Assembly (NCBI GenBank): GCA_943331295.2
Contig: CALQLA020000004.1
Location: forward strand, 62,001 to 126,000
From: Bordetella parapertussis
GTDB taxonomy: Bacteria; Pseudomonadota; Gammaproteobacteria; Burkholderiales; Casimicrobiaceae
DNA length: 64,000 nt
Direction of reading: 5' to 3'
Position 1 is the stretch's first letter, and each line of letters begins with the position of its first letter. Made by a program: the position numbers and the translations under genes. The notes under the pieces were generated by a model. The model was not told the DNA's origin. It saw only the letters and a program-made list of their open reading frames with translations, and did no database searches. Of this stretch, positions 38,798 through 39,027 are shown piece after piece.

Positions 38798-38990
38798 GGG
38801 CAGTCTCGCGGCAATGTCGATGCATGCTGAAACGCTCCCCGGGCTTCAGGGGACCGTCACTGGGTGCTGCTCGAAACGAGGGGGGATGAGTTATTTGCGC
38901 GCGGGGCGCAGGAACAGCAGCAGGCCACCCAGGAGGGGGGACGGCGCGGGGAGCGCGGGTCGGCCTGCGAATCGAAAATTGCTGCTCATA
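38798..38990 (-). promoter_or_regulatory. leuA leader with possible attenuator structures
   Basis: The leader of about 195 nt contains a leucine-rich small ORF. Downstream, CGGGGAGC (38834-38841 on the minus strand) can pair either locally with TCCCC at 38849-38853 or with GCTCCCCG inside the small ORF (38947-38954). These pairings are mutually exclusive, as expected for an attenuator. No strong poly-U tract follows the local hairpin, so the mechanism (termination or translational) is unclear. Confidence 0.55.
38891..38989 (-). CDS. leuA leader peptide (32 aa)
   Basis: This is a small ORF missed by the track. It starts at ATG 38989, ends at TAA 38891 and encodes 32 residues, seven of them Leu. 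They are concentrated in the second half (SPLLGGLLLFLRP). It ends 93 nt before leuA. Position and composition are those of a leader peptide through which ribosomes sense charged tRNA-Leu. No good Shine-Dalgarno is visible. The ATG lies almost at the predicted transcript start, so initiation could be leaderless. Function is inferred from context. Confidence 0.65.
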   Translation of the reverse strand: MSSNFRFAGRPALPAPSPLLGGLLLFLRPARK

Positions 38991-38997
38991 GAACGGG

Positions 38998-39027
38998 ACT
39001 ATAACCGCAAGTCGTTCCCATTCGCAA
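38998..39027 (-). promoter_or_regulatory. Candidate leuA promoter
   Basis: On the minus strand TTGCGA (39022-39027) and TATAGT (38998-39003) are 18 bp apart. The promoter overlaps the last codons of the upstream glycosyltransferase gene and would start transcription right at the leader peptide ATG. Confidence 0.5.

Follow-up and report, generated by a model that had tools for sequence, protein, structure and literature searches.

How is leuA controlled in the 64,000-nt stretch of DNA analysed here (the window), and does the short leucine-rich reading frame lying in front of it take part? A first-pass annotation had reported an unannotated ORF upstream of leuA, of 32 codons, seven of them Leu codons and with LLGGLLLFL near its end, a -35/-10 pair placed before it, and, downstream, a segment, CGGGGAGC, able to pair with two alternative partners, one of them inside the ORF; from these parts it had proposed that leuA is attenuated according to the charging of tRNA-Leu, in an arrangement better known from enteric leu operons. 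The ORF is present as described, and the sequence upstream of it holds one promoter-like site, sigma-70-like in form, where shuffled sequences led us to expect 0.1 (Table 1). The window has, then, what marks an attenuator leader, a short Leu-rich ORF before a leucine biosynthetic gene. Hairpin P2 reaches from within the last Leu codon to 2 nt short of the stop codon, and 33 nt separate the end of hairpin T from leuA. The promoter overlaps the 3′ end of the glycosyltransferase gene that lies upstream, and the TAG stop of that gene (39001-38999) is part of the -10 box. That gene (39002-39985, minus strand) lies between pssA and leuA, and its best model is AglJ-like, below the cut-off; in at least one congener (L002), pssA seems to adjoin the leader on its upstream side. 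In the 400 nt that precede ilvB (window 45302-45700, minus strand), no branched-chain-rich leader ORF turned up.

Table 1. Parts of the leuA leader region and the gene behind it, in window coordinates.
Feature	Position	Strand	Details
Promoter-like site	39027-38998	minus	-35 TTGCGA (39027-39022), 18-nt spacer, -10 TATAGT (39003-38998)
Leader ORF, MSSNFRFAGRPALPAPSPLLGGLLLFLRPARK, 32 codons, 7 Leu codons	38989-38891	minus	
GCTCCCCG, partner of CGGGGAGC within the leader ORF in the first-pass annotation	38954-38947	minus	
Leu run CTC CTG GGT GGC CTG CTG CTG TTC CTG (LLGGLLLFL), presumed sensing codons	38935-38909	minus	
Hairpin P2, UGCGC-CCCGC-GCGCA	38910-38896	minus	
C-rich spacer 3′ of the stop codon, ending GAGCAGC	38890-38866	minus	C 12, G 4 of 25 nt
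Hairpin T, GACGgUCCCCugaagcccGGGGAgCGUU, no U tract behind	38858-38831	minus	
CGGGGAGC, switch element of the first-pass annotation, within the 3′ arm of T	38841-38834	minus	
leuA, 2-isopropylmalate synthase, 574 aa, controlled gene	38797-37073	minus	NF002991 and TIGR00970 above cut-off

A Leu-rich ORF stands before leuA far more often than chance allows. Conservation of the small ORF in close relatives, the check named beforehand, was assessed at the 30 loci of the window's family returned by a LeuA search, a Leu-rich ORF being counted where three Leu fell within four codons no more than 350 nt upstream. Such an ORF was found at 29 of the 30 loci, against a mean of 3.1 and a maximum of 5 in dinucleotide shuffles, and the sole exception, L030, comes from a different genus and its leader has diverged. 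Among 77 leuA loci in named genomes of beta-, gamma- and alphaproteobacteria, Actinobacteria and others, a Leu-rich uORF is present at 62 (7.3 by chance), and most sampled Burkholderiales have one before leuA, so the arrangement is no enteric speciality. The link to leuA was recovered by models as well. A covariance model built on the leader's end (R1), run blind to leuA on 250 whole genomes of the order, matched 25 of them, and every one of the 25 matches lies just upstream of LeuA. Ten of these LeuA proteins are of the window's long type (58-100% identity, the window included), and the remaining 15 are of another, distantly related type (27-29% identity). Of 399 genomes of the order, a second covariance model (R2) matched 90, which belong to 49 genera; a sample of 369 genomes from across the class added just four, none of them a member of the order. 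LeuA was present at all of the 41 R2 loci checked, many of the weakest matches included. Since the leader occurs before two LeuA types, it stays with the function even where one type of enzyme has replaced the other. In the genome G806 the leader is present twice (L157 and L158), once before each LeuA type.

The way in which the ORF begins is as regular as its position. In 62 of 82 leaders the ATG lies 6-9 nt behind a -10-like hexamer, and from this gap transcription is predicted to start at the ATG or within a few nucleotides of it; the leader mRNA is thus probably leaderless or nearly so, as predicted from promoter spacing only. Nearly all of the aligned Leu codons before the tail stay Leu, and at nearly all of them the only changes are synonymous. 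The variation is of a coding type and the promoter geometry is conserved; transcription of the leader from its own promoter, and its translation, are predicted. The choice of Leu codons differs between leader types. In sister leaders of the Burkholderiaceae and Comamonadaceae types, the rare codon CTA makes up 49 of 101 Leu codons, as against 0 of 708 in the same organisms' leuA genes, and this enrichment is a strong sign of leucine sensing. In the window's family, CTA accounts for none of 167 Leu codons and the common CTG is used instead, which would weaken sensing.

What is conserved at the leader's end, and whether it amounts to a switch, bears on which mechanism can be proposed. P2 is paired in 99% of the alignment cells, with few changes, one of them compensatory (L015). 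Since the hairpin is found with 34 different tail peptides (LRPAR, LCPAHS, LRGRAH, LRAPRS, LRRRR, LRVRAH and others), and since, on average, only 14% of the other synonymous ways of encoding a given tail give an equally good fold, the RNA is better conserved here than the peptide. That the ORF encodes a functional small peptide acting in trans is for this locus a far-fetched proposal: leader peptides can act in trans, with peTrpL as precedent (PMC10117765), and a C-terminal L-L-R-x-A-R pattern is widespread, but the N-terminal part is not conserved, length ranges from about 23 to 43 codons, and the tail peptide varies while the hairpin stays. The switch of the first-pass annotation would make the element a classical attenuator, in which CGGGGAGC pairs either in the leader ORF or with the 5′ arm of T and the position of the ribosome chooses between them. 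Both partners are real in the window, the one with GCTCCCCG being extendable to 10 bp and the other, partly with UCCCC of the T hairpin, comprising 5 bp and a lower stem, and before the same gene the Comamonadaceae have leaders of classical appearance. On the leader side, GCTCCCCG occurs in four of four genomes of the genus, and three congeners keep GCGCTCCCCGCGC; downstream, however, CGGGGAGC is absent in all three congeners, so that within the genus it is found in the window only. Moreover, the partner in the ORF would lie mostly upstream of ribosomes held late in the Leu run or at the stop codon, so that both states would look alike, and no U tract follows T in the window, whose leader region has 0 terminator-like sites of the intrinsic, U-tract kind. 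Pairing was also tested across 77 leaders by comparing cognate with GC-matched non-cognate sequence pairings, in nine tests: the pre-Leu part of the leader paired with the T region no better in cognate than in non-cognate combinations (p 0.85, 0.67), the Leu run gave no cognate signal with T, and neither a conserved antiterminator nor a convincing leader-downstream pairing signal was found. A classical attenuator built on CGGGGAGC is, on these counts, very improbable in the window. Other pairings were tried in the same way and rejected: the Leu run with GAGCAG after the stop codon, attractive in the window and some relatives (p 0.63, 0.16-0.35 and 0.80 against non-cognate pairs); the leader tail with the segment before T (p 0.1-0.4); and the leader 5′ end with the Leu run (p 0.017, unconvincing after nine tests). 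Equilibrium folding with a masked ribosome let T form at nearly all ribosome positions and was equally flat for the Comamonadaceae controls, and hence was uninformative. When truncated transcripts were folded under Leu stalls, most of the Comamonadaceae controls had the 5′ arm of T pairing with a part of the leader that recurred among them (positions -6 to -11 relative to the stop codon), and leaders of the window's type showed no consistent partner of that arm.

Downstream of the stop codon, comparison of the leaders points to hairpin T as the only covarying structure. T lies about 30 nt after the stop codon in most loci, with a mean z of -1.7 against shuffles; its arms match their own partners far better than they match the arms of GC-similar loci (z -5.3, 77 leaders), and exchanges between close relatives include CCGUCC/GGACGG, CCAUCC/GGAUGG, CCACCC/GGGUG and GCCUUUUC/GAAAGGC. 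The U tails behind it are weak, with at least four U in the 8 nt after T in 12 of 44 relatives. A Rho-dependent version of the element would take the unpaired C-rich stretch after the stop codon as the place where Rho loads. The stretch would become exposed once a ribosome had completed the leader and left, and Rho would then stop transcription ahead of leuA; with a ribosome still held on the Leu codons, the RNA would be in a state that Rho cannot use, and T would be a pause hairpin. The composition of the spacer is suggestive in this respect (in every family, C makes up about 0.41 of it and G about 0.12), as is its avoidance of structure, its pairing with downstream sequence falling below that of non-cognate spacers (z +3.4, 77 leaders); the missing U tract in the window fits too, and Rho has been proposed for actinobacterial cys leaders that have no terminators (PMC1262725). 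Against this, a stalled ribosome would expose the spacer as well, barring a change of structure, and no structure of that kind came to light; the strong covariation of T is unneeded by a pure rut model, and some members (L033, L018, L024) have strong U tails. This version is accordingly one that we would entertain, while thinking it rather unlikely. Control of leuA translation by a fold of the leader end with downstream sequence, or by a pseudoknot, as in the actinobacterial LEU element, is in our judgement unlikely. A Leu-run uORF, probably leaderless here, the same LeuA protein family and the want of a typical terminator are shared with LeuL1 of S. lividans (PMC8079986) and with the LEU element (PMC1262725), and in sister leaders of the LPIGCRA type the tail GGUUGCCG has a possible pairing partner, CGGCAGCC, within the loop of a downstream GUGGC/GCCAC hairpin (97% of cells paired), a possible, unproven pseudoknot reminiscent of the LEU element. 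Yet that sister helix is nearly invariant and so comes without covariation proof, leaders of the window's type have no cognate signal for a leader-downstream helix, the C-rich spacer avoids downstream pairing, and no clear Shine-Dalgarno sequence was found near the window's leuA ATG.

Our preferred reading is that the window's leader is a leucine-sensing leader-peptide element for leuA and that ribosome stalling on its Leu codons controls the gene, which we think likely. Sequence comparison established the parts from which such an element would be made, namely a leader ORF carrying a Leu run, the geometry of the promoter, the hairpins P2 and T, and a link to leuA alone; that leucine is the signal, and that it is sensed by stalling, would follow from the logic of leader peptides. 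RNA polymerase would start at the leader ATG or within a few nucleotides of it, and the first ribosome would load on a leaderless or near-leaderless mRNA. When Leu-tRNA is short, the ribosome would stall in the Leu run, just 5′ of P2; when it is plentiful, the ribosome would complete the leader and leave at the stop codon. The position of the ribosome would then decide whether polymerase passes through the spacer and T into leuA, such that a stall under leucine shortage would raise leuA expression and completion of the leader would lower it. Because T is the sole covarying downstream structure, we tentatively place the output step there: premature termination or pausing around T would be the likeliest readout, weakly intrinsic in AT-rich members and, in GC-rich members such as the window, perhaps Rho-assisted termination by way of the C-rich spacer. 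What stands of the earlier proposal is thus that leuA has, in all likelihood, a leucine-responsive leader peptide; the pairing described for it, and with it the classical terminator/antiterminator form, find no support here.

Control by a leader peptide is already known, and the window's version of it is one without the textbook RNA switch. A bolder suggestion, put forward tentatively and with more doubt than confidence, is that the combination of a leaderless Leu-run ORF, a hairpin at the stop codon and an unpaired C-rich spacer forms a separate class, which would sense leucine without an antiterminator, through Rho access or polymerase pausing, and which would have been kept across many families of Burkholderiales independently of the type of LeuA. 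The window's leader type is absent from Rfam 15 and was not found in the open literature, where an earlier mention of betaproteobacterial leuA leaders is possible. Leucine attenuation is taught from enteric bacteria, and here a leuA leader is found in a large part of the Burkholderiales; the element predicts control of leucine synthesis in bacteria where little is described, and, being easily assayed, it lends itself to studying how a ribosome stalled on a leaderless leader controls transcription.

Leaders before leuA are of several types. Besides the RPAR type of the window, these are the LPIGCRA type of Cupriavidus, Achromobacter, Pandoraea, Massilia and relatives, the GRRR type of Variovorax, Polaromonas and Xylophilus, which has textbook-like terminators, and the actinobacterial LLLGRRDGV type. 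The LPIGCRA tail or a variant of it was seen in twelve of our leaders (L059, L060, L063, L064, L068, L079, L081, L086, L088, L091, L103 and L118). Short Leu-containing ORFs also precede leuA in gammaproteobacteria, in Pseudomonas and Halopseudomonas (L122 and L123; for example, MNTYHTLILLRQHANLCLVSQRLRG), and short, CTA-rich ORFs do so in Halomonas and relatives (L097, L107, L113 and L127; for example, MTAYDLDLRLLARS). The Comamonadaceae leaders (L082, L083, L090, L101 and L117) resemble the window's in position, in the gene that follows, in the Leu run and in an ATG close behind a promoter-like site. They differ in that the Leu run is rich in the rare CTA, a strong terminator hairpin, U-tailed in most of them, stands at the matching place, and a leader segment (AACGGGC in Polaromonas) is complementary to the terminator 5′ arm. 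The classical antiterminator form thus fits the Comamonadaceae leaders, for which we found no literature, and not the window's.

The enteric leu attenuator has a U-tract terminator, an antiterminator and rare Leu codons. The window's type shares with enteric leuL a Leu-rich leader peptide before leuA and the presumed sensing of Leu-tRNA by stalling, and departs from it in having no U-tract terminator and no conserved antiterminator, in its near-leaderless start and in its use of the common CTG. The Rfam family of the enteric element (Leu_leader, RF00512) did not match the window region with E values as high as 10 allowed, nor did it reach the gathering score in the relatives' leaders that were scanned. 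Closer in several respects are the LEU element of actinobacteria, whose uORF we take the LLLGRRDGV type to be (PMC1262725), and LeuL1 of S. lividans, MRFGLLLLSCRGEGL (PMC8079986): as in the window, a Leu-run uORF stands before a gene of the same long LeuA family, there is no typical intrinsic terminator, the start is leaderless (here as predicted from promoter spacing) and the Leu run lies near the stop codon. The LEU element has been described with a pseudoknot and with a base stem in which Leu codons pair with the leuA Shine-Dalgarno sequence (PMC1262725), whereas the window's type has the stop-codon hairpin, the C-rich spacer and hairpin T in their place; LEU-like helices of the Leu run, with post-stop sequence or with T, had no cognate signal in the window's type. 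The tails differ as well, RPAR-x in the window's type as against RRDGV or CRGEA in actinobacterial leaders. In the manner of its start, finally, the element resembles trpL of Sinorhizobium (PMC10117765), a leaderless leader ORF that begins at the first AUG of its transcript, with tryptophan codons in place of Leu codons and trpE in place of leuA.
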